A stretch of DNA of 64,000 bases from assembly GCF_022095675.1 (NCBI RefSeq), contig NZ_JAHYSG010000044.1:27544-91543 (forward strand), read 5' to 3'. The notes under the pieces are model-generated. The model was not told where the DNA came from, did not search any database, and worked only from the letters and a program-made list of their open reading frames with translations. A program made the translations under genes and the position numbers. The stretch comes from Dactylosporangium sp. AC04546 (lineage in GTDB: Bacteria; Actinomycetota; Actinomycetes; Mycobacteriales; Micromonosporaceae). Within the stretch, counting starts at the first letter, position 1. Every line of letters starts with the position of its first letter. Below are positions 20,813 to 38,790 of the stretch, one piece after another.

Positions 20813-22090
20813 ATGGCGGAACTAGCCGATCCGCGCGCGTCGCGGGCCGTGCTGATCGGCAGCGCCCGCTACGGGGCGCTGCCCGAGGTGCCGGCCGTGA
20901 CCCGCAACCTCGCCGGGCTGAGCGGGGTGCTCGCCGACGCCGACCTGTGGGGCCTGGCGCCCGAGCACTGCACGGTGCTCGCCGACCACGACGACCCGCG
21001 GTTGGTCAGCCGGGAGCTGCGCCGGGCGGCCGACGAGGCCCAGCCGGAGGGCATGCTCGTCGTGTACTACGCCGGGCACGGCCTGGTCGACCCGGTCGAC
21101 GGCAGCCTGGTGCTCGCCCTGCGGGACACCGATCCGGCGGTACCGCACGAGGCCGGCCTGCCCTTCGAACACCTGCGGCGGGCGGTGGCCGGCAGCCGGG
21201 CCCGCCGGCGCCTGGTGATCCTCGACTGCTGCTACGCGGGCCGGGCCGCCGGGCACATGGCCGCCGGCGAGTCCGGCACCCAGGTCGTCGCCGACCAGGC
21301 CGGCACCGACGAGACCTGCCTGCTGGTCTCCGCCCCGCGCAACCGCACCGCCCAGGCCCCGCCCGGCGAGCCCTACACGGCGTTCACCGGCGAGCTGCTG
21401 CGCGTGCTGCGCGGCGGGCTGCCGGACCGCTCGGCCCTGCTCGACGTGCGCACGGTGTGGCGGGAGGTGACGGCGCGGCTGCGCGAGCGCGGGTTCGAGC
21501 TGCCCGAGCTGCGGGCCGGCAACGCCGGCGACGAGCTGGTGCTGGTGCGCAACGCGGCCCGCCACCACCGGGACCTGGTCGGCCGGATCGTGGTGGCGAC
21601 CGCGGCGGTCGACGACCGCGACCTGCGCCAGGCGGTGGTGCTCATCCTGCGCCACGAGCGGGCCCGGGGCGCGGTCGGCGTGCGGATCAACGCGCCGACC
21701 AGCGCACCGCTGCCGGCGGAGATCCCGAGCGGCTGGCGGCGGCTGCTCACTCCGCCAGCGGTGATCTTCGACGCCGGGCCGCTCAGCCGCGCCGAGGGGT
21801 TCATCGCGGTCGCCCGGCTGCGGCCCGACGTGGAGCCGCCGCTGCGGTACCGGATGGTCCGGGAACGGCTCGGGGTCGTCGAGCTGTCGGCCGAGCCGGA
21901 GCCGCTCACCCCCGTGATCGCCGGGCTGCGGCTGTACTCCGGCTACCTCGGCTGGGGTCCCGAGCAGCTCGAGGCCGACATCGACGGCGGGCTGCTGCTG
22001 CTCAGCGACGCCGACGTGCGGGAGGTGCTGTCCAGCCGGCCCCGGGAGCTGTGGACCACCCTGCACGCACGCGCACGAGGGGACGCCTGA
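20813..22090 (+). CDS. Caspase-like peptidase fused to an AlgH/YqgE-like domain
   Basis: The first 250 of 425 residues form a C14 caspase-like peptidase with catalytic His89 in VVYYAGHG and Cys140 in LVILDCCYAG, plus the downstream LLVSAPRNRTAQAPPGEPYTAFTGELL substrate-loop region. Residues 257-425 resemble AlgH/YqgE (UPF0301): GRIVVATAAVDDRDLRQAVVLILRHERARGAVGVRIN, then a G-P-L-S-R-A-E-G-F block and LRLYSGYLGWGPEQLEADIDGGLLLL. A caspase-AlgH fusion is an uncommon arrangement. It lies ten bases after the EACC1 gene and its stop overlaps the SIR2 ATG by one base. The likely role is a suicidal or regulatory protease released on infection or stress. Confidence 0.82.
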   Translation: MAELADPRASRAVLIGSARYGALPEVPAVTRNLAGLSGVLADADLWGLAPEHCTVLADHDDPRLVSRELRRAADEAQPEGMLVVYYAGHGLVDPVDGSLVLALRDTDPAVPHEAGLPFEHLRRAVAGSRARRRLVILDCCYAGRAAGHMAAGESGTQVVADQAGTDETCLLVSAPRNRTAQAPPGEPYTAFTGELLRVLRGGLPDRSALLDVRTVWREVTARLRERGFELPELRAGNAGDELVLVRNAARHHRDLVGRIVVATAAVDDRDLRQAVVLILRHERARGAVGVRINAPTSAPLPAEIPSGWRRLLTPPAVIFDAGPLSRAEGFIAVARLRPDVEPPLRYRMVRERLGVVELSAEPEPLTPVIAGLRLYSGYLGWGPEQLEADIDGGLLLLSDADVREVLSSRPRELWTTLHARARGDA

Positions 22091-24126
22091 TGACGCTGCT
22101 CGACGAGATCGCCGGCGCGATCGGCCACGGTGCGCAGATCACCCTGATCCTGGGCGCCGGGCTGACCCAGCCGGCGGTGCCCGGGCTCACCGGGATCGTC
22201 GAGCTCGCCGACCGGTACGCGGCCGGGCTCGGCGACGACGGCGAGCTCACCCAGGCGCTGCACCAGGCCCGGCAGGAGCTGGGCCCGCAGGCCGCGCCGA
22301 TCGAGGTGTACCTCGCGTACCGGCGGGTCTTCACCGCCCGCCGCTCCCCCGGCGAGTTCGACGTGGTCGCCCAGCAGGCGGTCCTGGCCGGCTACCGGGC
22401 GCCGGACCTGGCCACCACGCCGCTGGCCACGCACGGCATCTGGCAGCGGGTCGACCTGCGCCTCGGCGAGCGGGTCGAGAACAGCCTCGACTGGTGGGAG
22501 CTGCCGCCGGGCGTGCGGGCGGTGGGCCGGCTGCTGGCCTGGCGCCCCGACGAGTTCGGCAGCGGGGTCGTGCTCACCACCAACTTCGACCCGCTGGTCG
22601 AGGTCGCCGTCCGGCTCACCGGCCGCCAGGCGGTCAGCGTGCCGGTCGACGCGGCCGGCCGCCCCGACCGCCGTCCGGAGGGCGACGGGACGGTCCAGGT
22701 CTTCCATCTGCACGGGTTCTGGCGGCCGGTGAACGAGACCGACCGCTCGCCGATGCTGCACGACCCGGCACCGTCCGTCGAGTCGGCCGAGCCGTCCGAG
22801 GCGTCCCGCGCGATCGCCGAGCTGATCACCGGCGACCAGGTCGTCGTGGTCGGCTACAGCGGCTGGGACGACGTCGTCACGGGCGCGCTGCGCGCGGTCC
22901 GGGCGGTCCGGCCGGTCCGGGTGCTGTGGGCGCTGCAGGAGGACGCTCCCCCGCCGGACCTGGCCGCGCGCCTCGGCGACCTGGTCACGTTCTTCCCCGG
23001 CATCGACGCCGACGAGCTGTTCGCCCGCCTCGCCGACCGGCTCCAGGTGCCGGCGACCGTCCCGCGCCCCGACCCGCGCCGCCGGGTGCGGCACCTCGAC
23101 TGGGAGCGCGAGCTGTTCTCGCAGCCCGGCAACGTCGTCCCCGACGGCGTGCTGCCGCTGCTGCGCCAGCTCGAGCGGCGCTACGGCTGGGGCGTCGACT
23201 GGGCCGGCGACCCGCAGCCGCCGCGCCTGCTCTTCTGGCCGGTCCGGCTGCGGGGCCGCGCGTCGCTCATCAACGCCGTCCAGGCCCTCGGCGCCGCCGC
23301 GCTCAGCGAGCGGGGCGTGCGGGTCGTGGTCTGCCTCGACGACTTCGGTGTCACGGACCGCGCCGAGCTCGGCGCCGCGTTCGCGGCCGACCTGCGCCGC
23401 TGGATGCGCCGCGTCGACCCGGCCGCCGGCCCGGCGGTCGTCTCGCTGCACGACTACATCGAGGACTCGCACCGCGAACCCAGCCTGCTCCGCCCGACCG
23501 ACCCCTGGTCGGTGGCCCGGATCTTCTACGGCGAGCGCAACCCGTCGCTGTACAGCGTCCTGGCCGCGATCAAGGTCGTGCCGCACCTGGCCCTGCACGA
23601 CCTGGAGCAGAACGCGGCAGCCATCGTGCAGACGCTGCTGAGCAAGGACGCGAACCGCCTGCTGACCCCGCTGACGACGTGGGCGTACCTCCACCACCTT
23701 CTGGAGACGGAGCCGGCGGCCGAGGTGATGGCGTACGCCGGCAGCGACGAGCGACTGCTGTGGGAGCAGTTCCGGGAGCACTTCGGGCTGGGCGGCACAT
23801 TGCTGTACAACCCGTACATCCGGCACCTCACCAACGAGTCCCGGATGGTGCGCTGGTCGACGCCGGCGGAGCTGCGCGAGTACCTCGCCTCGACCCGGGA
23901 GCTGCCCGGCTGGGGCGAGGAGGGCGGATACGTGCACTGGCTGGTCCAGAACGCGTTCCTGCTGCCGCGCTACCTCACCCGCTCGCCGTTCCCGGAGCTC
24001 GGCGGCTACCGCCTGGACTCGTGGGTGGCCTTCGCGGCGGCCCTGGACAAGGGCGCCCCGGTGCTGGACCTGCTGGCCGCGGACGTCTCGGCCTTCTACC
24101 TGCCGCCCACGCCACCGGCACCGTGA
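22090..24126 (+). CDS. SIR2-like domain protein of a caspase-containing conflict operon
   Basis: The 678-residue protein begins with a SIR2/TIR-associated Rossmann domain: LILGAGLTQP (NAD-binding GAG), VLTTNFDPLVEVA (TxNxD), VFHLHGFW and VVVGYSGWDD. Residues from about 340 on form a large alpha/beta and helical domain I do not recognise (for example LFWPVRLRGRASLINAVQALG, VVVCLDDFGVTDRAEL). SIR2-like proteins in bacterial defence deplete NAD+; here the domain could be sensor or effector. Its ATG overlaps the caspase stop by one base, so the two must be co-produced. Confidence 0.8.
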   Translation: MTLLDEIAGAIGHGAQITLILGAGLTQPAVPGLTGIVELADRYAAGLGDDGELTQALHQARQELGPQAAPIEVYLAYRRVFTARRSPGEFDVVAQQAVLAGYRAPDLATTPLATHGIWQRVDLRLGERVENSLDWWELPPGVRAVGRLLAWRPDEFGSGVVLTTNFDPLVEVAVRLTGRQAVSVPVDAAGRPDRRPEGDGTVQVFHLHGFWRPVNETDRSPMLHDPAPSVESAEPSEASRAIAELITGDQVVVVGYSGWDDVVTGALRAVRAVRPVRVLWALQEDAPPPDLAARLGDLVTFFPGIDADELFARLADRLQVPATVPRPDPRRRVRHLDWERELFSQPGNVVPDGVLPLLRQLERRYGWGVDWAGDPQPPRLLFWPVRLRGRASLINAVQALGAAALSERGVRVVVCLDDFGVTDRAELGAAFAADLRRWMRRVDPAAGPAVVSLHDYIEDSHREPSLLRPTDPWSVARIFYGERNPSLYSVLAAIKVVPHLALHDLEQNAAAIVQTLLSKDANRLLTPLTTWAYLHHLLETEPAAEVMAYAGSDERLLWEQFREHFGLGGTLLYNPYIRHLTNESRMVRWSTPAELREYLASTRELPGWGEEGGYVHWLVQNAFLLPRYLTRSPFPELGGYRLDSWVAFAAALDKGAPVLDLLAADVSAFYLPPTPPAP

Positions 24127-25834: not shown

Positions 25835-27232
25835 GTGCGCCTCGACCTCTCCGGACTCGCCTCCTTCCGCGGTTCGCTGATCACCCCCTACGACCCCGGT
25901 TACGAGGGCGCCCGGGTGCTCTTCAACACCCGCGTGCGCACCCGGCCGGCGCTGCTGGCCCAGTGCGCGGACGCGGACGACGTGGCGGCCACCATCCGCT
26001 TCGCCCGCGAGCACGAGCTGCCGCTGTCGGTGCGCGGCGGCGGGCACCACGCGAGCGGACTGTCCCTTGTGGAGAACGGGGTGGTCGTCGACGTCGGCGG
26101 GATGCGCTCGATCGACTTCGACCCGGCCGCGGGCACGGTCACCGTCGGCCCCGGCGTGGGCTGGCGGGACATCGACCGGGTGACGTATGTCGAGCACTCC
26201 TTCACCGGCCCCGACGGCCTGGAGTACGGGCTGGCCGGCCCGGGCGGCGAGTGCCCGACGGTGAGCAACGCCGGCTACAGCCTGGGCGGCGGCTACGGCC
26301 CGCTCGGGCGCACCTACGGCCTCGGCTGCGACCACCTGGTCGAGGTGTCCGTGGTGGACGCCGACGGCCGGCTGCTGCGCGCCTCGGAGACCGAGCACCC
26401 CGACCTGTTCTGGGCGCTGCGCGGCGCCGGCGGGGCCGGGCTCGGCGTCGTGACCTCGCTGACGTACCGGCTCAACCCGCTGCCGAAGACCGTCGTGGGC
26501 GGGATCGCCGCCTGGCCGCTGGACCGCGCGCTCGACGTCTTCCGCGCCTACCGCGACCTCTACCAGGACCGCGCGGACGACCGGCTCGCGCTGTGCCTGC
26601 TGCTCACCACCGAGCCGTACCCGGAGGGCGAGCCGGTGGTCGCGGTCTACGGCATGTACGTCGGGCCGCCGAAGGAGGCGGAGGAGGCACTCGCCCCGAT
26701 CCAAGGGCTCGGCGAGCCGATGTTCACGTCGTTCGGCGAGGTGTCGTACTTCGACCTCATGCAGGGCATGGGCGAGGAGATCGTCTACGGCCTCCAGTCG
26801 AAGTGGCTCGGCGGGTACTTCGCGCCCGACGGCTTCGACGAGCCGGCGTTCGCGAAGCTGGTCGACCACTTCCGCCGCAGCCCGTCGGGCTTCTCGATGG
26901 TGCGCTTCGACCTGCTGGCGGGCGGGGCGATCGCCCGGGTGCCGGCCGACGCGACGGCGTTCGCGCACCGCGACAGCCTGCACTACGTCTCGATCATCGC
27001 GCAGTGGCAGGGCGACGAGGAGACCGACCTCAACGTCAGCTGGGTCGACGACTTCGCCGAGGACCTGCGTCCCCACCTGACCGGCGAGGTCTACCAGAAC
27101 TACGCCGACCGCGACCTGACCGGCTGGGAGACCGCGTACTACGGCGCGAACTACCCGCGCCTCCAGCAGGTGAAGGCGGCGTACGACCCGCAGGACGTCT
27201 TCCACACCCCGCAGTCGATCCGCCTACCGTAG
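25835..27232 (+). CDS. FAD-linked oxidase of the berberine-bridge (BBE) type with bicovalent FAD motifs
   Basis: The 465-residue protein has the FAD_binding_4 core with His71 in RGGGHH (8-alpha-histidyl FAD site) and Cys140 in GECPTVSNAGYSLGGGYG (6-S-cysteinyl site), then the BBE tail NYPRLQQVKAAYDPQDVFHTPQSI. Such enzymes oxidise sugars, phenols or alkaloid-like intermediates with O2. The gene is convergent with the condensation-like gene at 27224 (nine-base overlap) and may be a tailoring enzyme of the neighbouring locus, but it is on the opposite strand, so membership is uncertain. Start is GTG. Confidence 0.9.
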   Translation: MRLDLSGLASFRGSLITPYDPGYEGARVLFNTRVRTRPALLAQCADADDVAATIRFAREHELPLSVRGGGHHASGLSLVENGVVVDVGGMRSIDFDPAAGTVTVGPGVGWRDIDRVTYVEHSFTGPDGLEYGLAGPGGECPTVSNAGYSLGGGYGPLGRTYGLGCDHLVEVSVVDADGRLLRASETEHPDLFWALRGAGGAGLGVVTSLTYRLNPLPKTVVGGIAAWPLDRALDVFRAYRDLYQDRADDRLALCLLLTTEPYPEGEPVVAVYGMYVGPPKEAEEALAPIQGLGEPMFTSFGEVSYFDLMQGMGEEIVYGLQSKWLGGYFAPDGFDEPAFAKLVDHFRRSPSGFSMVRFDLLAGGAIARVPADATAFAHRDSLHYVSIIAQWQGDEETDLNVSWVDDFAEDLRPHLTGEVYQNYADRDLTGWETAYYGANYPRLQQVKAAYDPQDVFHTPQSIRLP

Positions 27233-28594
27233 GGCCTCGCCGACGACGGCCGCCTCCCCACGGTCCCTGGTCGTGTCGGGAAAGGCCGCGGAGACGACGA
27301 TCTCCTCCATCGCGCGCAGGCAGCCGGCCATGTCGTCGGGTGAGAGGCGGTGGGTGTCGGCGCGGATGGTGAGGTCGATCGTGTCCGGCACCGGGTTCAC
27401 GAGCAGGAAGCAGGTCGTGTCGGGGGTGTCGGAGCGCCGGCCCCAGCGCAGCCGGCCGCGGTCGAGCGCGCGGGTGACGTCGCCGGCCGTCACCGTCATG
27501 CCGTCCGGGAACGTCGCGAACGACCGGCGGCGGTCGCTGAAGTACGAGCTGACGTCGATCGCCGCGCCGCGCTCGGTGCCGACCCGCTCGATCATCGCCC
27601 ACAGCTCGCGGGGGTCGTAGTACGCGTGCAGGCCGGCGGACAGCTGGCTCTGGAACGCGGTGGCGACGACCTCGTCGAACGTCTGCCCGCCGACGTCGAT
27701 GACGCACAGCGCGCTCTGCGCGACGGGGGCGACGGTCTCGCGGAAGCCGGGCCGGAAGCGGTTGCTCACCAGCGTCCGCAGCACGGTGCGCGGATCGCCC
27801 GAGATCCGGGCGAGCGCGACCGCGTACGCGGCGAGCAGCACCGTTCCACTGTGGACCTTCGTGCGGGCGGCCACCTCGTGCAGGGCGAGGTACGTCGCCG
27901 GCGAGTCGTAGCTGACGTCCCACCACCGCGGCTCGGCGGGCGCGGCCACCGGCGGGAAGCGCTCCGGCGGGATGGCGCGCAGGTGCTGCTCCCAGTGCCG
28001 CAGCGAGGCCGCCTGCTGCCGCCGGGCGGTCGCCGCCCGCTGCCGGCGCGCCTGCTCGAACGGCTGGACGCCCGGCACCTCGTCGGGGGGATCGGTCAGG
28101 TCGGCGGTCAGCGCCTCGATGCCGTAGCCGTCGAGGACCAGGTGCGTGTAGAGGGCGACGAACCAGGACGCCACCCCGTCCCGGCAGATCACCGCCCAGC
28201 GCACCGACCAGTCCTCGGCGGGGTCGAAAGGGGCGGTCTCCAGGCGCTCGCGGACCGCCTCGGCGACGGTTTCCGGGTCGCGGTCGCCGGCCTCGACGAC
28301 CTCCAGGAAGACCTCACCCTCGTCCGTGAGGAACTGGCGCGGCTCCCCGTCGGCGTCGAGGGCGAAGCGGGTCCGCAGCGACTGGTGCCGGCTCATCACG
28401 ACGCCGAGCAGCGCGGCGAGCTCGTCCACGGTCTGCCCGTCGCGCAGCGGCATGGTGCCGCCGGCCCAGTCGGCCTCGCCGTTGATGCGCATGGATCCCC
28501 AGGCGGCCCGCTGGCCCCAGGTCAGTTCCTCGACGCCCACGCCCTCGCCCGCGAACCGGACCGGTATGCGCTGCGCCGTTGCAGTTTCCAGCAT
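27224..28594 (-). CDS. Standalone condensation-domain-like protein (copy 2), downstream of a repeat peptide
   Basis: The 456-residue protein is a clear paralogue of the products at 11897 and 47032 (RIPVRFAGEGVGVEELTWGQ, SNRFRPGFRETVAPVAQ). The HHxxxDG motif reads T150-H151-LVL-D155-G156, retaining the catalytic His and Asp-Gly. No adenylation or carrier domain is attached. It lies 94 bp downstream of a micro-ORF for the peptide MKNAALRNAALRNARL, separated by a hairpin, and its own ATG has a CGAGG ribosome site. Acyl or peptide-bond formation acting on, or with, that peptide is a hypothesis only. Confidence 0.8.
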   Translation of the reverse strand: MLETATAQRIPVRFAGEGVGVEELTWGQRAAWGSMRINGEADWAGGTMPLRDGQTVDELAALLGVVMSRHQSLRTRFALDADGEPRQFLTDEGEVFLEVVEAGDRDPETVAEAVRERLETAPFDPAEDWSVRWAVICRDGVASWFVALYTHLVLDGYGIEALTADLTDPPDEVPGVQPFEQARRQRAATARRQQAASLRHWEQHLRAIPPERFPPVAAPAEPRWWDVSYDSPATYLALHEVAARTKVHSGTVLLAAYAVALARISGDPRTVLRTLVSNRFRPGFRETVAPVAQSALCVIDVGGQTFDEVVATAFQSQLSAGLHAYYDPRELWAMIERVGTERGAAIDVSSYFSDRRRSFATFPDGMTVTAGDVTRALDRGRLRWGRRSDTPDTTCFLLVNPVPDTIDLTIRADTHRLSPDDMAGCLRAMEEIVVSAAFPDTTRDRGEAAVVGEALR

Positions 28595-28598
28595 GTGA

Positions 28599-28622
28599 CC
28601 TCGTGTTCGGCCTCGTGTTCGG
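28599..28622. repeat. Tandem duplication of a 12-bp unit CCTCGTGTTCGG
   Basis: Two identical, adjacent copies (28599-28610 and 28611-28622) lie just before the start of the copy-2 condensation-like gene. On the gene's strand each copy reads CCGAACACGAGG, and the last copy supplies part of the ribosome site. Confidence 0.9.
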
Positions 28623-28639
28623 GAAGCGTCGGTTCCGGG

Positions 28640-28673
28640 GGCGGCCGGCGGAGGTGTCCCCCGGCCGGCCGCC
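28640..28673 (-). terminator. GC-rich hairpin between repeat peptide and condensation-like gene
   Basis: Perfect 10-bp arms GGCGGCCGGC (28640-28649) and GCCGGCCGCC (28664-28673) enclose a 14-base loop. There is no U-tract, so it may act as an attenuator or RNA stabiliser and set a high peptide-to-enzyme ratio. An equivalent hairpin pair exists in the divergent unit. Confidence 0.6.
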
Positions 28674-28688
28674 GTTCGGTGATGCGGC

Positions 28689-28739
28689 TCAGAGCCGGGC
28701 GTTGCGCAAAGCGGCGTTCCGCAGAGCAGCGTTCTTCAT
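28689..28739 (-). CDS. 16-residue repetitive peptide, candidate precursor (NAALR repeats)
   Basis: The micro-ORF encodes MKNAALRNAALRNARL, i.e. NAALR, NAALR, NARL after MK. A GGGAGG ribosome site lies seven to eight bases upstream of the ATG at 28739. Synonymous codons differ between units (AAC GCT GCT CTG CGG versus AAC GCC GCT TTG CGC), so the amino-acid repeat is conserved and is not a recent DNA duplication. The peptide on the divergent side starts MSNAALR, sharing the NAALR element. The gene is followed by a hairpin and a condensation-like enzyme. It may be a ribosomal precursor, a carrier peptide or a leader peptide for attenuation. Confidence 0.65.
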   Translation of the reverse strand: MKNAALRNAALRNARL

Positions 28740-29190
28740 GTCGCACCTCCCTCGCGTCGGGTCACCGGCAGGGTCCAGGAAAGGGTGGATCGACCGTTGT
28801 CATGGCGTTGAATCGTTTGGAGACTGACGGCCGTGGTGTCCTCCACCCGTCACGCGGCGACCTACCCGATCCGGCGGGTGCAGTCGCGGCGTTCGGACTC
28901 CGCGGCGAAGCCTATCCACAGGAACCGCTCCGCCGAAAGGTCTTCACATTGATCACTTCAAATCAGTAGATTCTCCGGGCATTCTGGCGACGGTTTGCCC
29001 GATTTCTCGCGAACGCACGGAAACGCATTGAAAGCTGTCGTCGAGTTAGCTCAGCGGTTGACAGCCCGAACGGTGCGGGTGATGCTTTTGGCGGCCATTG
29101 ATCGAAGTCGTTTGCCAATGGCCTGGTGCCGCCTGCGGTGCGCCATTCATAACGCACCGCGGATGGATTGGTTGATATGAGGAGGTGAAC
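28740..29190. promoter_or_regulatory. 451-bp divergent intergenic region between the two repeat-peptide genes
   Basis: No gene is seen here. The stretch is less GC-rich than its surroundings, especially 28950-29185. It contains a TTGACA at 29058-29063 with a possible GATGCT 17 bases on (plus strand), and copies of a CCAAACGATT-like element on the minus strand at 28811-28820 (exact) and 29106-29115 (GCAAACGACT). It should hold the promoters and operators for both peptide units. Confidence 0.55.
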
Positions 29191-29304
29191 ATGTCGAACG
29201 CTGCTCTGCGCGTGGTCTCCGGCCGCGTCGTCTCCGGCCGCGTGGTGTCCGGGCGCGTGGTGTCCGGGCGGGTCGTCTCGGGCCGTCGCGTCGTCTCGGG
29301 CTGA
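29191..29304 (+). CDS. 37-residue peptide with six RVVSG repeats, candidate precursor
   Basis: The micro-ORF encodes M-S-N-A-A-L followed by six consecutive R-V-V-S-G units, the last preceded by one extra Arg, then TGA. It has an ideal Shine-Dalgarno (AGGAGGTGAAC) directly before the ATG at 29191. Codons vary synonymously between units (GTG/GTC, TCC/TCG, GGC/GGG, CGC/CGG), so selection acts on the peptide sequence. The N-terminal NAALR element is shared with the divergent 16-residue peptide. Downstream come two strong hairpins and a condensation-like gene. A repetitive ribosomal precursor or a carrier peptide is the leading hypothesis; a basic amphipathic effector peptide is the alternative. 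Confidence 0.7.
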   Translation: MSNAALRVVSGRVVSGRVVSGRVVSGRVVSGRRVVSG

Positions 29305-29412
29305 ACCTGGTAGTCACCGCGGCCGATGCCGGCCGCACGCTGTAGCACCGCGGCCACGTTCCGGCCGCATCTTCCGCGCTGTGATCTCCCTCGGCTCGCA
29401 GCGCGGGTCATC

Positions 29413-29450
29413 CCCGCACCCGGACGCCTCCCCGTGCGTCCGGGTGCGGG
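29413..29450 (+). terminator. Perfect 15-bp hairpin after the RVVSG peptide gene
   Basis: Arms CCCGCACCCGGACGC (29413-29427) and GCGTCCGGGTGCGGG (29436-29450) enclose an 8-base loop. The stem is very stable but lacks a U-tract; it may be an attenuator or 3'-end stabiliser for the peptide mRNA. Confidence 0.65.
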
Positions 29451-29453
29451 AAC

Positions 29454-29491
29454 GCGGGCGGCCGGCCGGGCGACAACCGCCGGCCGCCCGC
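29454..29491 (+). terminator. Second perfect 13-bp hairpin, tandem with the first
   Basis: Arms GCGGGCGGCCGGC (29454-29466) and GCCGGCCGCCCGC (29479-29491) flank a 12-base loop, starting only three bases after the previous hairpin. It ends 24 bases before the ribosome site of the condensation-like gene. The tandem pair would strongly limit read-through. Confidence 0.65.
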
Positions 29492-29524
29492 GATCTGTCC
29501 TGCCCGCGATCCGTGGAGGCTGCC

Positions 29525-30766
29525 GTGCACGAGACGTATCCGGCGACCGTCGGCCAGCTGTCGGTCTGGCGCGACATCGAGAAGATGCCGCCGGAGCGGC
29601 GCTGGGAGGCGAACCTGGTGTTCGTCTGGGACCTGCCCGCCGGGGCGTGGACCGAGGACGAGATCTGGGACGCCCTGGGGCGGCTGGGGATGCGGCACGG
29701 GTCGCTGCGCACGACGTACGAGCTCGACGCCGGCGGCCTGCCCCGCCAGCACCTCGCCGCCGGCACCGCCGCCGAGGTGCGCGACGCCGTCCGCCAGGGC
29801 ACGGCCGCGATCGCCGACCTCGCGGCGATGGAGACCGCCGAACTGCAGCGGGCCATCGACGCCACCGCCGAGCTGCCGTGGCGGACCTGGATCCTGACCG
29901 AGGCGGGCCTGCCGCGGCAGGTGCTCGTCGTGGTCAACCACATGGCCGCCGACGGCGCGGCGATGCTGCTCATGCGGGACGACTTCGAGCGGCTGCTGCG
30001 GGGCGAGACCCTGCCGCCCGCGCGCGGCCCCCTGGAGATGGCCCTCGACCAGCAGGGCGCGGGTTCGGGGCGGCTGCGGACGGCCGAGCGGTACTGGCGG
30101 CGCACGCTCGACGCCGCGCCGAAGCTGGCCCCGGGCACGCCGCAGGGCCCGCCGCTCGGCGCGACCCTGCACACCGGCATCCCGATGCCGCTCACCCACG
30201 AGGGCGCCGCGAAGCACGAGGTCAGCACGGCCAGCCTGATCCTCGCGGCCTACTACACGGCCCTGCGCGAGGTCACCGGCGAGCAGGCCCAGCTGCTGTA
30301 CCCCATGTCGTCGAACCGCTACGACGACGAGCACGCCGCGGTCGTCACCAGCCTCAACCAGTGGACGCCGCTGCTGCTGGACCTGGAGGAGCCGTTCGCC
30401 GACCTGCTCACGAAGGTGCACTGGAAGAGCTTCAACGCCCTCAAGAACGGCGTCTGCTCCCCGGACGCGATCCTGACGATCCGCTCGGAGCACGAGCAGG
30501 CAGGCGGCGACCCCGGGTACTACTACAACCCGATCCTCGCCCCGCCCGGCTTCCCCTCCGAGGACACCGTGGTGCCCCCGTCGCTGGAGCACTACGAGCC
30601 GGCCCGCACGACCGGCCCGGGCTTCTACGTCATCGCCCGCGGCCTGACCAGCCTGGACCTCATCGTGCGCGTCCACCGCCCGGGCTGGACCGCACAGTCG
30701 CTGGACCGGGTCCTGGCCCGGATGCAGTCGACGCTGGCCGAGTCGTTCGGCGGCCACCCCCTGTGA
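29525..30766 (+). CDS. Standalone condensation-domain-like protein (copy 3), downstream of the RVVSG peptide
   Basis: The 413-residue protein is a more distant member of the condensation superfamily than the other three copies. Its HHxxxDG site reads N138-H139-MAA-D143-G144. Other recognisable parts are the N-terminal VGQLSVWRDIEKMP (Q-x-x-[FLV]-W of condensation N-termini) and a late SSNRYDDEHAAVVTSLNQWTPLLLDL block. GTG 29525 has GGAGG five bases upstream, and a longer reading frame from 29381 would run through the hairpins. It is the enzyme partner of the plus-strand peptide unit. The substrate is unknown. Confidence 0.75.
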   Translation: MHETYPATVGQLSVWRDIEKMPPERRWEANLVFVWDLPAGAWTEDEIWDALGRLGMRHGSLRTTYELDAGGLPRQHLAAGTAAEVRDAVRQGTAAIADLAAMETAELQRAIDATAELPWRTWILTEAGLPRQVLVVVNHMAADGAAMLLMRDDFERLLRGETLPPARGPLEMALDQQGAGSGRLRTAERYWRRTLDAAPKLAPGTPQGPPLGATLHTGIPMPLTHEGAAKHEVSTASLILAAYYTALREVTGEQAQLLYPMSSNRYDDEHAAVVTSLNQWTPLLLDLEEPFADLLTKVHWKSFNALKNGVCSPDAILTIRSEHEQAGGDPGYYYNPILAPPGFPSEDTVVPPSLEHYEPARTTGPGFYVIARGLTSLDLIVRVHRPGWTAQSLDRVLARMQSTLAESFGGHPL

Positions 30767-30781
30767 CGCACCGATCTCCCC

Positions 30782-30855
30782 CGCGATCTTGGAGTTGTGG
30801 TCCCAGAAATGTCCGATAAAGGCGACAAGTCGGGGACCACAACTCCAAGATCGCG
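30782..30855. repeat. Perfect 23-bp inverted repeat with 28-bp spacer (REP/MITE-like or bidirectional terminator)
   Basis: Arms at 30782-30804 (beginning CGCGATCTTGGAGTTGTGGT) and 30833-30855 are exact reverse complements. The element fills the gap between two convergent genes. Its moderate GC content and exact symmetry set it apart from local hairpins. It may be a dispersed genomic element that doubles as a two-way terminator. Confidence 0.8.
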
Positions 30856-30877
30856 CGCTTGAAAAGGGCGGCCGCCC

Positions 30878-31837
30878 TCAGGACTCGCGCAGTGAGCGGC
30901 CTGTCTTTGTCAGGAAGACGTCGTCCAGTGTCGGGCGGTGCAGTTCGATCGTCGACAGCGTGATTCCCGCGCCCTCCAGGGTGCGCATGATCTGGGGGAT
31001 CGCGGTGTCGCCCGCGTCGACGGTGAGCCACAGCTCGCCGTCCTCGCGCTGCTCCAGGCCGCGGGCGAAGGGCTGGTCGCGCAGCGTCTCGGCGGCCTTG
31101 TCGGCCAGCTCCGCCGGCACGCCCACCGTCACCACGTCGCCCGAGATCTCCCGCTTCAGCGCGTCGGGCGTGCCCTCCGCGACGATCTCGCCGTGGTCGA
31201 TGATCGCGATGCGGTCGCAGAGCGCGTCGGCCTCGTCGAGGTAGTGCGTGGTGATGAAGACGGTCATACCCTCGGCGCGCAGGCGGCGGATCTCGTCCCA
31301 CATGTGCGCGCGGCTCTGCGGGTCGAGGCCGGTCGTCGGCTCGTCCAGGAACAGCACCTGCGGCTTGTGGATGACGCCGAGCGCGATGTCGACCCGCCGG
31401 CGCTGGCCGCCGGAGTACGTCTTGCACTTGCGGTCGGCGTACTCGGTCAGGTCGAACGCGGCGAGGGCCTCCTCGGCCCGCTGGGTCGCCTCCGCCTTGC
31501 CCAGGCCGTACATGCGGGCCTGGAGGATCAGCTCCTCGCGGGCGGTGACGTCGTCGGAGGTGCCGCCGCCCTGCGCGACGAAGCCGATGCTGCGCCGGAC
31601 GGCGGCCTGGTCGTTGCGCAGGTCGTTGCCGGCGATGGTGGCCTCGCCGTCGTCGGGCGGGATGAGCGTCGCCAGCATGCGCAGGGTCGTGGTCTTGCCG
31701 GCGCCGTTCGGGCCGAGGAAGCCGAAGATCTCGCCCTCGGCGACGTCGAGGTCGATGCCCTTGACCGCGTCGACGCTGACCGTCTGCCGCTTGTGCCGCG
31801 TCTTGAAGGACTTCTGCAGCCCCTTGGTCTTGATCAT
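30878..31837 (-). CDS. DrrA-type ABC exporter ATPase
   Basis: The 319-residue protein has Walker A GPNGAGKTT, signature YSGGQRRRVDIALGV, Walker B VLFLDEPTTGLDP and H-loop TTHYLDEADALCDR, followed by the DrrA C-terminal extension. It should energise export of a hydrophobic or glycosylated product with the adjacent ABC-2 permease. It is the last gene of the minus-strand operon methyltransferase, carrier protein, glycosyltransferase, permease, ATPase, and so probably gives self-resistance or secretion for the cluster product. A GGAG ribosome site precedes the ATG. Confidence 0.93.
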   Translation of the reverse strand: MIKTKGLQKSFKTRHKRQTVSVDAVKGIDLDVAEGEIFGFLGPNGAGKTTTLRMLATLIPPDDGEATIAGNDLRNDQAAVRRSIGFVAQGGGTSDDVTAREELILQARMYGLGKAEATQRAEEALAAFDLTEYADRKCKTYSGGQRRRVDIALGVIHKPQVLFLDEPTTGLDPQSRAHMWDEIRRLRAEGMTVFITTHYLDEADALCDRIAIIDHGEIVAEGTPDALKREISGDVVTVGVPAELADKAAETLRDQPFARGLEQREDGELWLTVDAGDTAIPQIMRTLEGAGITLSTIELHRPTLDDVFLTKTGRSLRES

Positions 31838-31862
31838 GAGAACTCCTGGTGACGACGACGGG

Positions 31863-32627
31863 CTAGCGGACCGAGCGGGCGAACAGGCGGGCCGACCAGG
31901 CGACCGCCACCACCACGAGCCCGCCGCAGATGACGAGGCTCTTCCAGACGCTGGCGTCGCCCGGGTTGCCGGCGTAGAGCGCGCGCATGCCGGTGACGGC
32001 CCAGTTGAACGGGTTCCAGTCGGCGATCGTGCGCAGCCAGAGCGGGGCCAGGGCGAGCGGCAGCAGGGTGCCGGACAGCAGCATGAGCGGCTGGGCGACG
32101 TTGTTGATGACCTGCCCGAGGACGTTCGGGTTGTTCACCTTGATCGCGATGCCGTACGAGATCGACGCGGCGGCGAGGCTGATCAGGGCGAGGATCGCGT
32201 AGCCGAGCAGGATGTTGCCGATGTTGGTGATCAGGCCGAACGGCAGCGACAGCACGGTGATGAGGATCGACTGCACGATCACCGTGACGACGTCGCGCAG
32301 CGAGCGGCCCAGCAGCAGCGCGACCCGGCTCACCGTGGTCACCCGGGACCGCTCGATGACGCCGTTGGCGAGGTCGCCGAGCAGGCCGAAGCCGACGTAC
32401 AGGCCGCCGCCGATGGCCAGCGCGACCAGCATGCCGGGGACGTACACCCGGTAGGCGTCGATCATCGAGTCGGCGCCGAGCGAGGCGAGCGCCGGCTTGA
32501 GCAGCGGCGCGAAGAGGATCAGGTACACGACCGGCTGCGCGATGCCCAGGAACACCCACAGCGGCGAGCGGACCATCAGCAGCATGTGTCGTTGGAAGAT
32601 CAGCCAGGTGTCGCGCAGTACTTTCAC
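31863..32627 (-). CDS. DrrB-type ABC-2 permease
   Basis: The 254-residue permease has about six TM helices and the ABC-2 core (FLGIAQPVVYLILFAPLL, VLGQVINNVAQPLMLLSGTLLPLALAPLWLR, NPFNWAVTGMRALYAG). The GTG at 32627 overlaps the glycosyltransferase stop (GTGA), which favours it over a TTG at 32639. It pairs with the downstream ATPase as an efflux system. Confidence 0.9.
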   Translation of the reverse strand: MKVLRDTWLIFQRHMLLMVRSPLWVFLGIAQPVVYLILFAPLLKPALASLGADSMIDAYRVYVPGMLVALAIGGGLYVGFGLLGDLANGVIERSRVTTVSRVALLLGRSLRDVVTVIVQSILITVLSLPFGLITNIGNILLGYAILALISLAAASISYGIAIKVNNPNVLGQVINNVAQPLMLLSGTLLPLALAPLWLRTIADWNPFNWAVTGMRALYAGNPGDASVWKSLVICGGLVVVAVAWSARLFARSVR

Positions 32628-33808
32628 GGTGTCTCGCAATCGTCCTTGTCGAGGAGGGGGTGGGCCAGGCGCTCGAGGTGGCCGGCGGCCGCCTCCGCTC
32701 CGCCGCCGGCGGTGAGCTCGGCGCCCAGCTCGCGGGCCGCGTCCGCGTAGGACGGCGTGGCGAGCAGGTCGAGCAGGGCGGCGCGGAGCCGTTCGGGTGG
32801 GGTGTGGTCGAAGGAGACCCGCAGCCCGGCGCCAGCGGTCGCGACGGCCGCGGCGTTCAGCGCCTGGTCGCCCTTGATCGGCGCGACGAGCAGCGGCACG
32901 CCGTGGACCAGCGCCTCCGAGACGGTGTTCAGCCCGCCGTGGGAGACGACGGCGTCGAGGTGCGGCAGCAGGTCGAGCACCGGCACCCGGCGGCGGACGA
33001 GGACGTGCGCGGGTGCCTCGGTGATCGTGCCCTCGGCCGCGACGACCACCGCCTGGAGCCGGTCGCCGAGCGGCTCCAGGGCGGCGAGCATCCGCTGGTA
33101 GAAGTCCTTGGCGAGGTCCAGCCCGAGGGTGCCGACGGTGACCAGGACGTGGCGGCGGCCCGGATCGAACCAGTCGAGCGGGAAGTCCGGGTCGGGGGCG
33201 CGGGCGGCGAGCGCCGGCCCCACGAGCACGGCGTTGCCGGGCCGGTCGGACGGGTCGCCGGCGAGTGCGCCCGCGCTGAAGGCGATCACACCGTACGGCG
33301 AGAAGCGCAGGTCGTGCGGCGGTTCACCGGGCCGGCCGGCGGCCGTCCACGCGGCGGCCATCCGGCCCTGGATCCACGCCTCGACGCCCGGTAGCGAGCG
33401 CCGGAACGGCCGCGTGAGCTCCATCGTCGTCGGCGCGACGCTCGCCCAGCGCAGCCCGCGGGCGGTGGCGACGATCGCGCCGGCGATCGCGTGCTGGTCG
33501 ACGACCACCAGGTCCGGCACGAACGCCTCGGCGGCGGCCTCGATGCCTTTGCGGGTGCTCTTGGCGTGCGGCAGGATGTAGCCGTCCCAGCGGGACCGGG
33601 TGGCGTCGAGGCCGCGCTCGGCGATGCCGCGGTGGGCCCGCAGCGGGATGCCGTGGATCTGCGCGTCGTCGCCGACGAGCGGCCGCAGGAACGACTCGGA
33701 GCCGGCCCACAGCACGTCGTGGCCGCGGCCGGTGAGCGCGTGCGCGACCGCCGCCATCGGGTTGACGTGCCCGGTGAGCGGCAGCGAGACGAACAGGAAC
33801 CTGGTCAT
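32624..33808 (-). CDS. UGT/MGT-type glycosyltransferase (GT1 family)
   Basis: The 394-residue protein has a two-domain GT-B fold with N-terminal LFVSLPLTGHVNPMAAVAHAL and a donor-site motif SHGGLNTVSEALVHGVPLLVAPIKGDQALNAAAV. Family members transfer sugars from nucleotide donors to phenols, macrolides or lipids. Its start overlaps the carrier protein stop (ATGA), and its end overlaps the permease start. It should glycosylate the cluster product before export. No sugar-biosynthesis genes are nearby, so a primary-metabolism donor such as UDP-glucose is likely. Confidence 0.9.
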   Translation of the reverse strand: MTRFLFVSLPLTGHVNPMAAVAHALTGRGHDVLWAGSESFLRPLVGDDAQIHGIPLRAHRGIAERGLDATRSRWDGYILPHAKSTRKGIEAAAEAFVPDLVVVDQHAIAGAIVATARGLRWASVAPTTMELTRPFRRSLPGVEAWIQGRMAAAWTAAGRPGEPPHDLRFSPYGVIAFSAGALAGDPSDRPGNAVLVGPALAARAPDPDFPLDWFDPGRRHVLVTVGTLGLDLAKDFYQRMLAALEPLGDRLQAVVVAAEGTITEAPAHVLVRRRVPVLDLLPHLDAVVSHGGLNTVSEALVHGVPLLVAPIKGDQALNAAAVATAGAGLRVSFDHTPPERLRAALLDLLATPSYADAARELGAELTAGGGAEAAAGHLERLAHPLLDKDDCETP

Positions 33809-34074
33809 GTCCGCGCCGTGACGTAGTCGGCGACGTCGGCCACCGTGAGGGTGAGCAGGGCGTCGAAGTCCAGGCCGGCGACGTGGCCGGCCAGGTCCAC
33901 CGCGGGGCCGAAGCGGGCGGCGAGGGCCGCGCTCAGCGCGACCAGCTCGACGCTGTCCAGGAACAGGTCGCCGTCGAGGCGGGTGGCCGGGCCCAGGCCG
34001 GCCTGCCACTCCGCGTCCTCGCCGGTGACCTCGCGCAGCAGCTCGGCAACCGCCCGCTGCGCCGCGGTCTCCAT
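33805..34074 (-). CDS. Acyl/peptidyl carrier protein
   Basis: The 89-residue protein has a carrier-protein helix bundle with the phosphopantetheine Ser41 in LFLDSVELVAL. It begins two bases after the methyltransferase stop and overlaps the glycosyltransferase start by ATGA. A carrier placed between a methyltransferase and a glycosyltransferase suggests that methylation occurs on a tethered acyl chain, which is inference. It needs activation by a phosphopantetheinyl transferase such as the one at 50326-50967. Confidence 0.85.
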   Translation of the reverse strand: METAAQRAVAELLREVTGEDAEWQAGLGPATRLDGDLFLDSVELVALSAALAARFGPAVDLAGHVAGLDFDALLTLTVADVADYVTART

Positions 34075-35615: not shown

Positions 35616-37112
35616 GTGACCGACGAGGCGCTGGACCCCCGGTGGGTCGACGAGGTCCTGCTGGCCGGCCCGGACGAGCAGGTAGCCCTGGTCCTCGCGG
35701 CCCCGGTCACCCGGGCCGAGCTGCGCCGGCTGGTCTCGGCGAAGCAGGCGGTGCTGTCCAGCGCCGGGCTCGGCCCCGGCGGCTCGGTGGCGCTGTGCCT
35801 CGCGCCGTCGCTCGCCTTCGTGGCCAACCTGCTCGCCTGCTGGCGGCTCGGCGCGCGGGCGGCACTGCTCGACCACCGGCTCACCCCGTTCGAGGTCGAC
35901 AACGCCCTGCAGCGCCTCGCGCCGCAGGTGGTCGTCACCGCCGGGCACGCCTCCGGCGGGCCGCTGCGCGGGTTCCAGGAGATCGAGGAGCGGGTCGCCA
36001 CCTACCCCGGCCGCCCGGCCGACACCCCGCACGCGCTGATCCAGCTCAGCTCCGGCTCCACCGGGCCGTCAAAGGTCATCGCCCGCACCGCCGCGAACCT
36101 CGTGGAGGAGCTGGAGCGGTACACGGCGATCGGTGCCGGCGTGCCCCGGGCCGGCGAGCGCATCGTCTCGCTCGCGTCCATGGTGCACGTGCTCGGGCTC
36201 GTCGGCGGTCTGCTGTACGGACTCCACATCGGCGCCCAGGTGGTGATCCCGGCGCGGATGACCGCCGACGGCATCCTGGCCACCGTCGCCGCGGGGCCGG
36301 AGCCGACCACCCTGCTCGGCGTCCCCTTCCACATCGAGCTGCTCTCGTCGGTGCAGGCCCCGCCGCCCCTGCCCCAGCTGACCGGCATGACGACCGGCGG
36401 CGAGCTGGTGCGCCCCGAGGTGTACGCCGGCTTCGTCGACCGCTACGGCGTGCGCCTCGGCAACATGTACGGCATGACCGAGGTCGGGGTCATCGCGACC
36501 GACCTCTTCGGCGAGCACCGCCCCTTCCTCACCCCGGCCCCGGGCCTGCGTGTGCGCGAGGAGGGCGGCGAGCTGCTGGTGTCGCTGGCCGCCTCGCCGT
36601 ACCTCGGCCTGGTCGACCCCGCGCGGTGGTCCGGCGGCTGGCTGCGCACCAAGGACGCCGGATTCGTCGACCCGGCGACGGGCCGCTTCCGGGTGCAGGG
36701 CCGCCGCGACTCCCAGGTCTCCGTCGGCGGCCTGAAGGTGGACCTCACCGAGGTCGAGCACACGCTCGCCGCGCTGCCCGGCGTCGCCGCCGCGGTCGTC
36801 ACCTACGACAAGGCGATCGAGGCCTACGTGACGCTGCAGGAGGGCGCCTCGGCGGCCGGCGTGCAGGCGCAGCTCGCCGAGCGGCTGGCCGGCTTCAAGC
36901 GCCCCCGGGTCCTCAAGGTCGTCGAGCAGCTGCCGCGCACCGCCACCGGCAAGCTCGTGCGCGACCGCACGCTGCTGGTCGCGGCCGCCGCGGACAGCGT
37001 GCCCGCCGTGCCCACCGTGCCCGCTCAGCGGGCCGCAACAGACGTGACCGACGGCCATCAAGGCGCTGCCGTACCGGCAGCATCCGTCCAGGAAGGAAGC
37101 ACCACGCGATGA
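35616..37112 (+). CDS. AMP-dependent acyl ligase (adenylating enzyme 1)
   Basis: The 498-residue ANL-family enzyme has the AMP-binding P-loop LIQLSSGSTGPSKV, GNMYGMTEVG, the hinge region WLRTKDAGF...GRFRVQGRRDSQVSVGG and the catalytic Lys in RTATGKLVRD. It should adenylate a carboxylic acid and load it onto one of the carrier proteins encoded next. GTG 35616 has GGAAAGGGG six bases upstream, and the stop overlaps the next carrier gene by ATGA. A Val/Pro/Ala-rich tail of about 35 residues follows the catalytic domain. Confidence 0.9.
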   Translation: MTDEALDPRWVDEVLLAGPDEQVALVLAAPVTRAELRRLVSAKQAVLSSAGLGPGGSVALCLAPSLAFVANLLACWRLGARAALLDHRLTPFEVDNALQRLAPQVVVTAGHASGGPLRGFQEIEERVATYPGRPADTPHALIQLSSGSTGPSKVIARTAANLVEELERYTAIGAGVPRAGERIVSLASMVHVLGLVGGLLYGLHIGAQVVIPARMTADGILATVAAGPEPTTLLGVPFHIELLSSVQAPPPLPQLTGMTTGGELVRPEVYAGFVDRYGVRLGNMYGMTEVGVIATDLFGEHRPFLTPAPGLRVREEGGELLVSLAASPYLGLVDPARWSGGWLRTKDAGFVDPATGRFRVQGRRDSQVSVGGLKVDLTEVEHTLAALPGVAAAVVTYDKAIEAYVTLQEGASAAGVQAQLAERLAGFKRPRVLKVVEQLPRTATGKLVRDRTLLVAAAADSVPAVPTVPAQRAATDVTDGHQGAAVPAASVQEGSTTR

Positions 37113-37387
37113 ACGACGCCACCGCAGCGGAGATCCGGCAGTTCCTGCTCGACTCGCTGACCGAGATGAACTACAGCACCGACGACATCGACGACGACAC
37201 CGCGCTCGGCCCGGCCGGCGCCGACCTGGAGTCGCTGTCGCTCGCCGAGCTGGCGGTGCGGGTCGAGGACCGCTTCGGCGTCCGGTTCGACGACGACGAG
37301 GCCGAGAAGCTGGCCGGCATGACCGTCGGCGAGTTCATCGCCTCCGTCGCCGAGCGCCTGGCCGCCGCCGCCACGGCGGGCAGCTGA
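37109..37387 (+). CDS. Acyl carrier protein
   Basis: The 92-residue acidic protein has the carrier motif GADLESLSLAELAVRVEDRFGVRF with the presumed phosphopantetheine Ser42 and the MTVGEFIASV helix IV. It is coupled to the AMP ligase (ATGA), the likely loading partner. Confidence 0.88.
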   Translation: MNDATAAEIRQFLLDSLTEMNYSTDDIDDDTALGPAGADLESLSLAELAVRVEDRFGVRFDDDEAEKLAGMTVGEFIASVAERLAAAATAGS

Positions 37388-37389
37388 GC

Positions 37390-37638
37390 GTGGCCGTGGC
37401 ACCCGACGCACCGGGCCGCGACGAGATCCTCGCCATGCTCGCCACCTACGGCGACCGGCGCGTCGAGGACGTCGCGGAGGGGATCGACTCGCTCGAGCTG
37501 GCCTGGCTCGTCCACCAGCTCGAGCAGCACTACGGCGCGGCGCTGGACCTCTCCGACGAGGAGCTCGCCCGGATGACCACGGTGAGCGGCGCCGTCGAGG
37601 TCCTGGCGGGCCTGAGGGCCGGGACGAGCCCGCGATGA
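37390..37638 (+). CDS. Second acyl carrier protein
   Basis: The 82-residue protein resembles a carrier protein with presumed Ser34 in EGIDSLELAWLVHQLEQHYG and a final helix SGAVEVLAGL. It starts (GTG) two bases after the previous carrier gene stop and overlaps the ketosynthase start by ATGA. Two adjacent carriers may tether two different acyl groups to be joined. Confidence 0.8.
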   Translation: MAVAPDAPGRDEILAMLATYGDRRVEDVAEGIDSLELAWLVHQLEQHYGAALDLSDEELARMTTVSGAVEVLAGLRAGTSPR

Positions 37639-38774
37639 CCGCGCGGCGGGGAACCGAGGACGTCGTACTCACCGGCGTCGCGGCGCTGAGCGCGTTCGGC
37701 CGGGGCATGACCGCCCTCGCGGCCGGGCTCGACGCCGGGACGCCCGCGTTCGCGCCGGTCGAGCGCTTCGACGTGAGCGGCCGGCGGGTCGGGGTGGCCG
37801 CGGCCGCGGCCGGCGCGCCCGCCCTCGCCGCGGAGCTCGCCGACCTGCTCGACGAGGCGTGCGACGAGGCGAAGCTGAGCACCGCCCAGCGCGCCGCCGC
37901 CCCGCTGTTCCTCGCCACCCACGGCGACCCGGAGCTGGCCCGCGTGCCGGTGGCCGACCGCCTGCGGCACGGCAGCACCGCGTTCGCCGTGGCCCTCGCG
38001 GTCGCGGCCGGGCTCGGCGGCACCGTCCGCGCCTACACCACCGCCTGCGTCGCGGCGAGCACCGCGATCGCCGACGCGGCCGCGCTCGTCGCCCACGGCG
38101 AGGCGGACCGGATCGTCGTCGCCGGCGCCTACCTCGTCGAGCCCGACCAGTTCGCGCTGTTCGACGCCGGCCGCGCGCTCGCGGTCGACGGGCAGGTGCG
38201 GCCGTTCTCCGCCGGCCGGCGGGGGCTGCTGCTCGGCGACGGCGGCGGCGCGTTCGTCGTCGAGTCGGCGGCGGCCGCCCGCGAACGGGGCGCGCCGGTG
38301 CTCGCCCGGCTGGCCGGCTGGGGCCGGGCCGGCGACGCGTACCACCCGTGCCAGCCGCACCCCGAGGGCCGCGGGATGGCCCGCGCGATCGCCGCCGCCC
38401 TGGAGCGGGCCGGCGTCGCGCCCGAGGCGGTCGGCTACGTCAACGCCCACGGCTCGGGCACCCCGCAGAGTGACACCGCCGAGGCGGCCGCGCTCTACGC
38501 GGTGCTCGGCGGCCACGCCGCCGAGGTGCCGGTGTCGTCGACGAAGGCGCTGCACGGCCAGGCCCTGGAGGCTTCGGGCGTGCTGGAGCTCGCGGTGACC
38601 GTGCACGCGCTCACCACCGGCCGGCTGCCGGTGAACGCCGGCTACACCGGCCCCGACGACGGCTGCCGGCTGAACCTCGTGCTCGCACCGCGGACCGGCG
38701 CCCCGGGTTACGCGCTGACCCTCAACGCCGCGTTCGGCGGCGCCAACACCGCGCTCCTGGTGGGTGCGGCATGA
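37635..38774 (+). CDS. Beta-ketoacyl synthase (KAS I/II type)
   Basis: The 379-residue condensing enzyme has a full Cys-His-His triad in TTACVAASTAI, NAHGSGTPQSD and STKALHGQALEASG, and GG-rich C-terminal NAAFGGANTALLV. It should extend or join acyl chains on the preceding carriers by decarboxylative Claisen condensation. No reductase genes accompany it. It is tightly coupled upstream and lies beside a ketosynthase-like partner. Confidence 0.88.
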   Translation: MTARRGTEDVVLTGVAALSAFGRGMTALAAGLDAGTPAFAPVERFDVSGRRVGVAAAAAGAPALAAELADLLDEACDEAKLSTAQRAAAPLFLATHGDPELARVPVADRLRHGSTAFAVALAVAAGLGGTVRAYTTACVAASTAIADAAALVAHGEADRIVVAGAYLVEPDQFALFDAGRALAVDGQVRPFSAGRRGLLLGDGGGAFVVESAAAARERGAPVLARLAGWGRAGDAYHPCQPHPEGRGMARAIAAALERAGVAPEAVGYVNAHGSGTPQSDTAEAAALYAVLGGHAAEVPVSSTKALHGQALEASGVLELAVTVHALTTGRLPVNAGYTGPDDGCRLNLVLAPRTGAPGYALTLNAAFGGANTALLVGAA

Positions 38775-38790
38775 GCGCAGCGTGGAGTTC

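Follow-up and report, generated by a model that had tools for sequence, protein, structure and literature searches.

A tiny repeat-peptide gene paired with a stand-alone condensation enzyme in Dactylosporangium and other actinobacteria

In a stretch of 64,000 nucleotides (hereafter the window) from the 13.0-Mb genome of a Dactylosporangium strain, a 37-residue repeat peptide is encoded just upstream of the gene for a condensation-like protein. The question raised by this locus is what a peptide of this kind could do beside such an enzyme. The results described below suggest that ribosome-made peptides may act as partners or substrates in antibiotic-type biosynthesis of some soil actinobacteria.

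The p1 peptide and its counterparts in relatives

The frame p1 (29191-29304, plus strand) encodes MSNAALRVVSGRVVSGRVVSGRVVSGRVVSGRRVVSG, 37 aa, starting with ATG at 29191 and ending with TGA at 29302-29304. The ribosome site that the initial annotation had seen directly before this short frame was confirmed as AGGAGGTGAAC (29180-29190, plus strand). Its AGGAGGTG is conserved in Dactylosporangium sucinum JCM 19831 (Micromonosporaceae; G005) and in the relatives G002, G001, G004 and G023; G006 carries GGAGGTG. The combination of ribosome site and ATG is common in the genome of the window (293 matches vs 101 for the reversed pattern), so a strong site alone proves nothing. Of the six RVVSG units, which had been described as consecutive, all six are present, but only five are contiguous and the sixth follows an extra Arg. 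The units differ by synonymous codons, as had been noticed: over the 15 unit pairs the differences at codon positions 1/2/3 were 0/0/38, that is, all 38 fell on third positions. In the region 26000-33000 no Rfam match reached the gathering score, and no plasmid record similar to 28600-30766 was found.

A repetitive ORF of the p1 type was found 5' of C1 in six Dactylosporangium genomes and in one other genus (G023). The orthologues read MSNAALRVVSG(RVVSG)5RRVVSG in G005, one unit longer than in the window, MPNTAKRVVSGRAVSG... in G002, MSN(AISGR)8RAISG in G004, M(RVVSS)5R in G001, MPSIISRKIISRVISN in G006 and MKAVSSRAVSSRGIKSRAVSSRAVSSRAIKSS in G023. The codon-position differences were 0/0/49 for the seven units of G005, 0/0/63 for the eight RAISG units of G004, 0/0/16 for the five RVVSS units of G001 and 0/10/52 for the seven R(V/A)VSG units of G002; the four units of G023 gave a less clean 3/3/13. 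Because the differences within Dactylosporangium genomes are almost all at third positions while the unit varies between species, selection acts, as judged at the codon level, on the amino-acid repeat. This bears out the selection proposed for the window. The repeat unit is not fixed (RVVSG, RAISG, RVVSS, AVSSR and, loosely, IISR), and the MSNAAL start is dispensable, as the G001 peptide begins with MRVVSS. When the repeat was searched genus-wide, eight places outside C1 loci were matched at E < 1e-3, all of them within open frames of 177-719 aa.

In genus g4, probably Micromonospora, 15 genomes have at the p1 position a non-repetitive ORF of 7-8 residues with GGAGGT(G) in front. Four types were read: MKNNSAG (n=3), MKGNSAG (n=1), MVKNDCAG (n=3) and MRK(D/G/N)DCxx (n=8). 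Loci that keep the enzyme and lack any repetitive small frame had been named beforehand as evidence against the proposal. Repetition is indeed lost in these 15 genomes, but the tiny ORF stays there, and repetition is evidently not essential to a tiny ORF at C1 as far as these loci tell. No leader separate from a core could be recognized, the G001 peptide consisting of units only after Met and the g4 peptides of 7-8 residues. The two features expected of a ribosomally encoded (RiPP) precursor gene, coding selection and a conserved ribosome site, are both apparent from the sequence comparison.

All eight MRKxDC loci (L090-L097) carry a further 12-residue ORF, MRSVGKRGVSWT or MRNVRNRGISWT, with its own ribosome site and a start some 120-135 bases 5' of the MRKxDC ORF; none was seen in L088 and L125, which are MVKNDC loci. 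The MRKxDC clusters have a second C-like gene, and a partnership of the 12-mer with it was considered and dropped, since L107 has that gene without the 12-mer.

The p1 ribosome site sits within ATGAGGAGGTGA (29177-29188, plus strand), a three-codon frame M-R-R-stop that ends two bases 5' of the p1 start codon. These letters are identical in G005, G001 and G004; G002 has ATGGAGGAGGTGAAC instead, in frame.

The C1 enzyme, its pairing with a tiny ORF and a second pair

C1 (29525-30766, plus strand) is a stand-alone condensation-domain enzyme of 413 aa. It matched PF00668 with 36.3 bits (cut-off 30.6), and its structure model (pLDDT 89.9, pTM 0.86) gave as best structural matches 6cgo, the chain-releasing C domain of enacyloxin, and SgcC5 (4znm). 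The condensation-like partner of the initial annotation is a C-domain protein by both family and predicted fold. In its NHMAADG motif, residues H139, D143 and G144 do not vary across 20 aligned rows, and the first His is Asn in the window. The PF00668 match, C-domain fold, HHxxxDG-type motif and catalytic His of a free-standing condensation enzyme are all found in C1, with the His and Asp intact as read from the alignment rows.

The enacyloxin C domain and SgcC5 act in trans on untethered acceptors. C1 is like them in fold and active-site motif, whereas its identity to solved C domains is about 13-21% among the structural matches listed. We know of no partner peptide gene for either of these two enzymes. 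Within Dactylosporangium, C1 is 51-86% identical to that of the window in the alignment (87% for D. sucinum in a separate comparison) and, locally, 25-38% identical to its genus paralogues. C-domain matches per genome, counted in the genome of the window and six relatives and including domains within large NRPS frames, numbered 12 to 33 in six of the seven and 3 in the seventh.

The search for small frames upstream of C1 homologues, which the initial annotation had proposed, was carried out in the family (354 genomes), of which 25 were matched at E 1e-85 or better; after exclusion of the outgroup genomes G281, G288 and G053, whose C1-like match has no tiny ORF, the C1 clade comprised 22 genomes. 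In 22/22 the enzyme gene is closely preceded by a tiny ORF that has a strong ribosome site. A class-wide search (394 genomes, E 1e-45) gave six matches besides that of the window, all in other families (L112-L117), and none has a tiny ORF with at least 5 ribosome-site bases. The MRK/MVKxDC-type ORF was also searched as a DNA pattern, derived from known members and not covering the four MKxNSAG loci, whose serine codon is TCG. It occurred in 11 of 160 g4 genomes, once each and directly 5' of C1; the reversed control gave zero matches in the same 160.

Tiny ORFs were then scanned outside called genes in 529,011 bp of loci, the window included and the second D. sucinum copy (L009) excluded. ORFs of 5-58 aa that start with ATG and have 7/8 or more ribosome-site bases numbered 21, and all 21 lay directly upstream of a C1- or C2-type enzyme, in loci that had been fetched because they contain such enzymes and in which 453 genes were called by our own script, some being missed. 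The same scan gave 5 ORFs with exactly 6 ribosome-site bases, one of which is the G002 peptide read from an earlier start, and 28 with 5 bases, which represent background. On a tree of 65 chosen enzymes, 27 of them with a tiny ORF, the trait required two changes, one covering all 21 C1-clade rows and one covering 6 C2 rows. None of 500 label shuffles did as well, a comparison in which near-copies favour clustering; the tree is without L089, L024, the C2 copy of G023 and some of the fetched paralogues. At the level of gene order, the peptide is paired with C1 in all members found.

The window holds a second such pair, absent from the initial annotation. The peptide p2 (28689-28739, minus strand; MKNAALRNAALRNARL, 16 aa) has an NAALR repeat and the ribosome site GGAGGTG (28744-28750, minus strand), and it precedes C2 (27224-28594, minus strand), a second stand-alone condensation enzyme divergent from C1. 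The p2 peptide is identical in G005 and reads MKGAALRGARL in G002, MKSAQLRGSNAQLRSVNAQLRNARL in G001, MKAAQLRGSNAQLRNARL in G004, MKDAVSLRSASQLKLARLARRAEAQL in G023 and MKSVRSL in a G006 relative. The C2 family is large, with a member in 87 of 300 genomes at E 1e-35. Thirty of its loci were read. A tiny ORF that starts with ATG and has 6 or more ribosome-site bases is present in six of them (L135-L139, L142); two (L140, L144) have GTG-start ORFs alone, which were taken for chance, and 22 have none. Most other C-enzyme paralogues read were likewise without a tiny ORF. The genes p1 and p2 have in common the identical 15-nt word GAACGCTGCTCTGCG, which covers NAALR; as NAALR, the p2 unit, also opens p1, the sequences suggest that peptide segments may have been exchanged between the pairs. 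The C2 orthologue of G023 (L101, G023:C1:1242734-1244077) contains a TAG in frame, its p2 peptide has drifted, and it may be decaying.

Cluster context and possible roles of the peptide

The enzyme lies in a cluster of free-standing NRPS and type II PKS parts, among them three carrier proteins, two each of AMP-binding ligases and ketosynthases, and four C-domain proteins. C1 is adjoined by a DrrA-type ABC exporter ATPase (30878-31837, minus strand), assigned by Pfam and syntenic in G005, G002, G001, G004 and G006, and by an ABC-2 exporter permease (31863-32639, minus strand), assigned by Pfam and synteny. A free-standing carrier protein follows at 33805-34074 (minus strand), a weak PF00550 match with 23.0 bits (cut-off 20.8). 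Domain searches placed two more carrier proteins at 37109-37387 and 49311-49598, an AMP-forming acyl/amino-acid ligase at 35616-37112 and a second AMP-binding enzyme at 45411-47039, all on the plus strand. Two ketosynthase-type genes (37635-38774 and 39336-40586) with an AmcG-like gene between them, below its family cut-off, fill 37635-40586 (plus strand). The product of 40622-41713 (plus strand) is 4-HPPD/hydroxymandelate synthase-like, above the TIGR01263 cut-off, and together with an aminotransferase and an FMN-dependent dehydrogenase (50964-53269, minus strand; domain search) it looks like a putative 4-hydroxyphenylglycine set. The cluster also holds a KAS III-like gene, an E1-type dehydrogenase pair, a phosphopantetheinyl transferase and an ectoine-hydroxylase-like oxygenase below the cut-off of that family. 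It is syntenic for the most part in G002, G001, G004 and G006, until the contig end in G005, and in part in G023.

Two otherwise unlike cluster types of g4 both hold the tiny ORF, C1 and an MFS transporter with 59-61% identity. One type has a PCP, a P450, a ligase and a PLP enzyme; the other has a carrier-protein-like gene and a radical SAM-SPASM protein. As the two types share only C1 and the MFS exporter, among the genes called in the compared stretches and apart from a weak match of a second L103 MFS gene, the tiny ORF with C1 (and exporter) behaves as a cassette.

Two perfect stem-loops separate p1 from the C1 gene, one of 12 bp at 29416-29447 and one of 13 bp at 29454-29491 (both plus strand), the latter inside the hairpin that ranked strongest there in the hairpin comparison. 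In 19 of 26 loci (21 of p1 type and 5 of p2 type) the strongest hairpin between ORF and enzyme exceeded every one of ten shuffles of its GC-rich interval; the other seven were the window, G002, G004, G006, L091, L092 and the p2 locus of G005. In the eight MRKxDC loci, 2 of 25 predicted pairs were changed on both sides with pairing retained.

A short ORF followed by a terminator-like stem-loop and an enzyme gene is also the arrangement of leader-peptide attenuators, known for amino-acid biosynthesis and as the erm/cat type. The main rival explanation is accordingly a regulatory leader, in which translation of the tiny ORF would control whether the stem-loop is read through towards the C1 gene run by amino-acid, tRNA or drug sensing, or by Rho/polarity. 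We consider this possible but rather unlikely. It would account for the position, the strong ribosome site and the hairpins, for the length of the tiny ORF in g4 and for the place of C1 as the first gene of the following run at the g4 loci. The hairpin 5' arm was searched for an upstream partner in 150 nt plus the ORF against 100 mononucleotide shuffles, and the window had the strongest pairing signal of 15 loci (z -2.0). However, over these loci z ranged from -2.0 to +1.5 with no partner clearly beyond the shuffles, and a conserved antiterminator was not found. The units RVVSG, RAISG, NAALR, KNNSAG and KDDCAG have no regulated amino acid in common, and no run or key codons of a single one are shared by the p1, p2 and g4 units. 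Unlike in known attenuators, the geometry is variable, the distance from stop codon to strongest hairpin being 4 to 144 nt and the whole interval about 680 nt in G002, and the units are amplified in tandem, from 5 to 8 copies. In the window, moreover, the C1 ribosome site lies outside the stem-loops.

An accessory peptide that binds and activates or stabilizes the C enzyme in an MbtH-like manner, or docks a carrier protein, without being consumed, appears improbable to us. One co-inherited peptide per enzyme agrees with such a role, and the basic repeats could bind acidic carrier proteins. On the other hand, 7-8 residues are very small for a folded partner, and the repeat changes in unit and copy number among Dactylosporangium genomes whose enzyme is still 51-86% identical to that of the window. 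A pentapeptide-repeat (Qnr-like) fold for NAALR/RVVSG was rejected, as Arg, to our understanding, misfits at a buried position. That the repeat is a non-functional element of RNA or DNA which happens to be open is very improbable. Slippage can generate tandem 15-bp repeats, and an antisense frame exists at 29046-29411, but the codon differences in the plus frame (0/0/38, 0/0/49 and 0/0/63) speak strongly against this explanation and led to rejection of the antisense frame. In addition, ribosome site, ATG and stop are retained despite the change of unit, and the tiny ORF is present at 22/22 enzyme loci.

The explanation that we prefer, with a confidence just short of even, is that p1 is a ribosomal and apparently leaderless partner of the trans-acting C1, most likely its acceptor or carrier. 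It is favoured by selection at the amino-acid level, amplification of the unit, an acyl-transfer enzyme with exporter, and the absence of clear attenuator signs. The wider proposal, held more tentatively, is a ribosome-NRPS hybrid in which a C enzyme uses in trans a leaderless ribosomal peptide (a 7-8-mer or tandem pentads) as acceptor or carrier, the cassette of peptide gene, C enzyme and exporter having moved between unrelated clusters, and a second peptide gene standing before a second C enzyme. A free-standing carrier protein of the cluster would present an acyl or aminoacyl group as a thioester, and C1 would transfer this group onto translated p1. The putative product, the p1 conjugate or a part processed from its several copies, would leave through the adjacent transporter. 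The stem-loop behind the peptide gene might let peptide mRNA outnumber enzyme mRNA.

The reactive site could be the Ser/Cys of a [R/K]-x-x-[S/C] unit, which would have been multiplied to 5-8 tandem copies in five of the six Dactylosporangium genomes and kept single in g4. The motif is present in 10/10 p1-type representatives and in both 12-mers, a signal that is weak for single short peptides (shuffle probabilities 0.09-0.40 for peptides of 7-12 aa, 0.12 for G006 and 0.22 for G023). As it is missing in 5 of 6 p2-type representatives, and the p2 peptides of G000 and G002 are without any Ser or Cys, acylation of Ser/Cys cannot be general, and the motif was discarded as a general rule. The p2/C2 genes might be a second such pair with another site. 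Against an acceptor role count two further stand-alone C-like enzymes of the window (11897-13237 and 47032-48369, both plus strand; domain search), which are without a strong-RBS tiny ORF in the ORF scan, and the fact that tiny ORF, hairpin and gene run also fit a regulatory leader. No constant maturation protease was seen in the cluster; the sole protease-like gene, that of a caspase-domain protein at 20849-22090, is unmatched in G001 and G004.

Comparison with known systems and further observations in the window

To our knowledge, no system of a tiny peptide gene with a condensation enzyme has been described. In biarylitide-type minimal RiPP clusters a tiny pentapeptide gene is followed by a P450. 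The likeness lies in a gene of few codons with its own ribosome site directly 5' of a presumed tailoring enzyme, and in the lack of a classical leader. Here, however, the partner is a condensation-domain protein and 7 of 22 members are repeat peptides. An aromatic cross-link motif with an adjacent P450 was not found: p1 and p2 contain zero aromatic residues, the neighbour is a PF00668 protein, and the P450 that the L103 cluster of g4 does contain comes fourth among the genes behind C1.

In PEARL/pearlin pathways a ribosomal peptide serves as scaffold. The idea of a ribosomal scaffold or carrier for a non-ribosomal unit is the same, whereas a Lant_dehydr/PEARL-type domain is absent from the 33 window proteins scanned with Pfam and the partner belongs to PF00668. 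The acylated RiPPs goadvionin and selidamides are made by GNAT acyltransferases. They likewise join acyl chains of PKS or fatty-acid machinery to a ribosomal peptide, but among the same 33 proteins there is no GNAT, the peptide has no long leader, and the enzyme has a C-domain fold.

Should the peptide prove to be a substrate or carrier, a single step would unite the condensation chemistry of NRPSs with peptide synthesis on the ribosome. Genome mining would then gain a handle on products likely to escape ordinary gene calling, because the peptide genes have only 7-48 codons. Even with a regulatory or accessory role, a tiny peptide partner throughout the members found of a C-enzyme clade (22/22) is unexpected and lends itself to direct tests.

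Two other features of the window were recorded. A tiny Lys-rich ORF, MAKKSKKGKKKNKKK (18637-18684, minus strand), stands behind AGGAGG and adjoins a CYTH-CHAD gene; it is identical in G005 and changed in length in G001 and G004 (MAKKSKKGKKDKKDKKGKKK and MAKKSKKDKKGKKGKKK). At 20849-24126 (plus strand) the caspase-domain protein, which has an AlgH-like part, is encoded beside a SIR2-like protein. These genes are matched in the G005, G002 and G006 loci, with no match in those of G001 and G004, and may form a separate defence-type unit.
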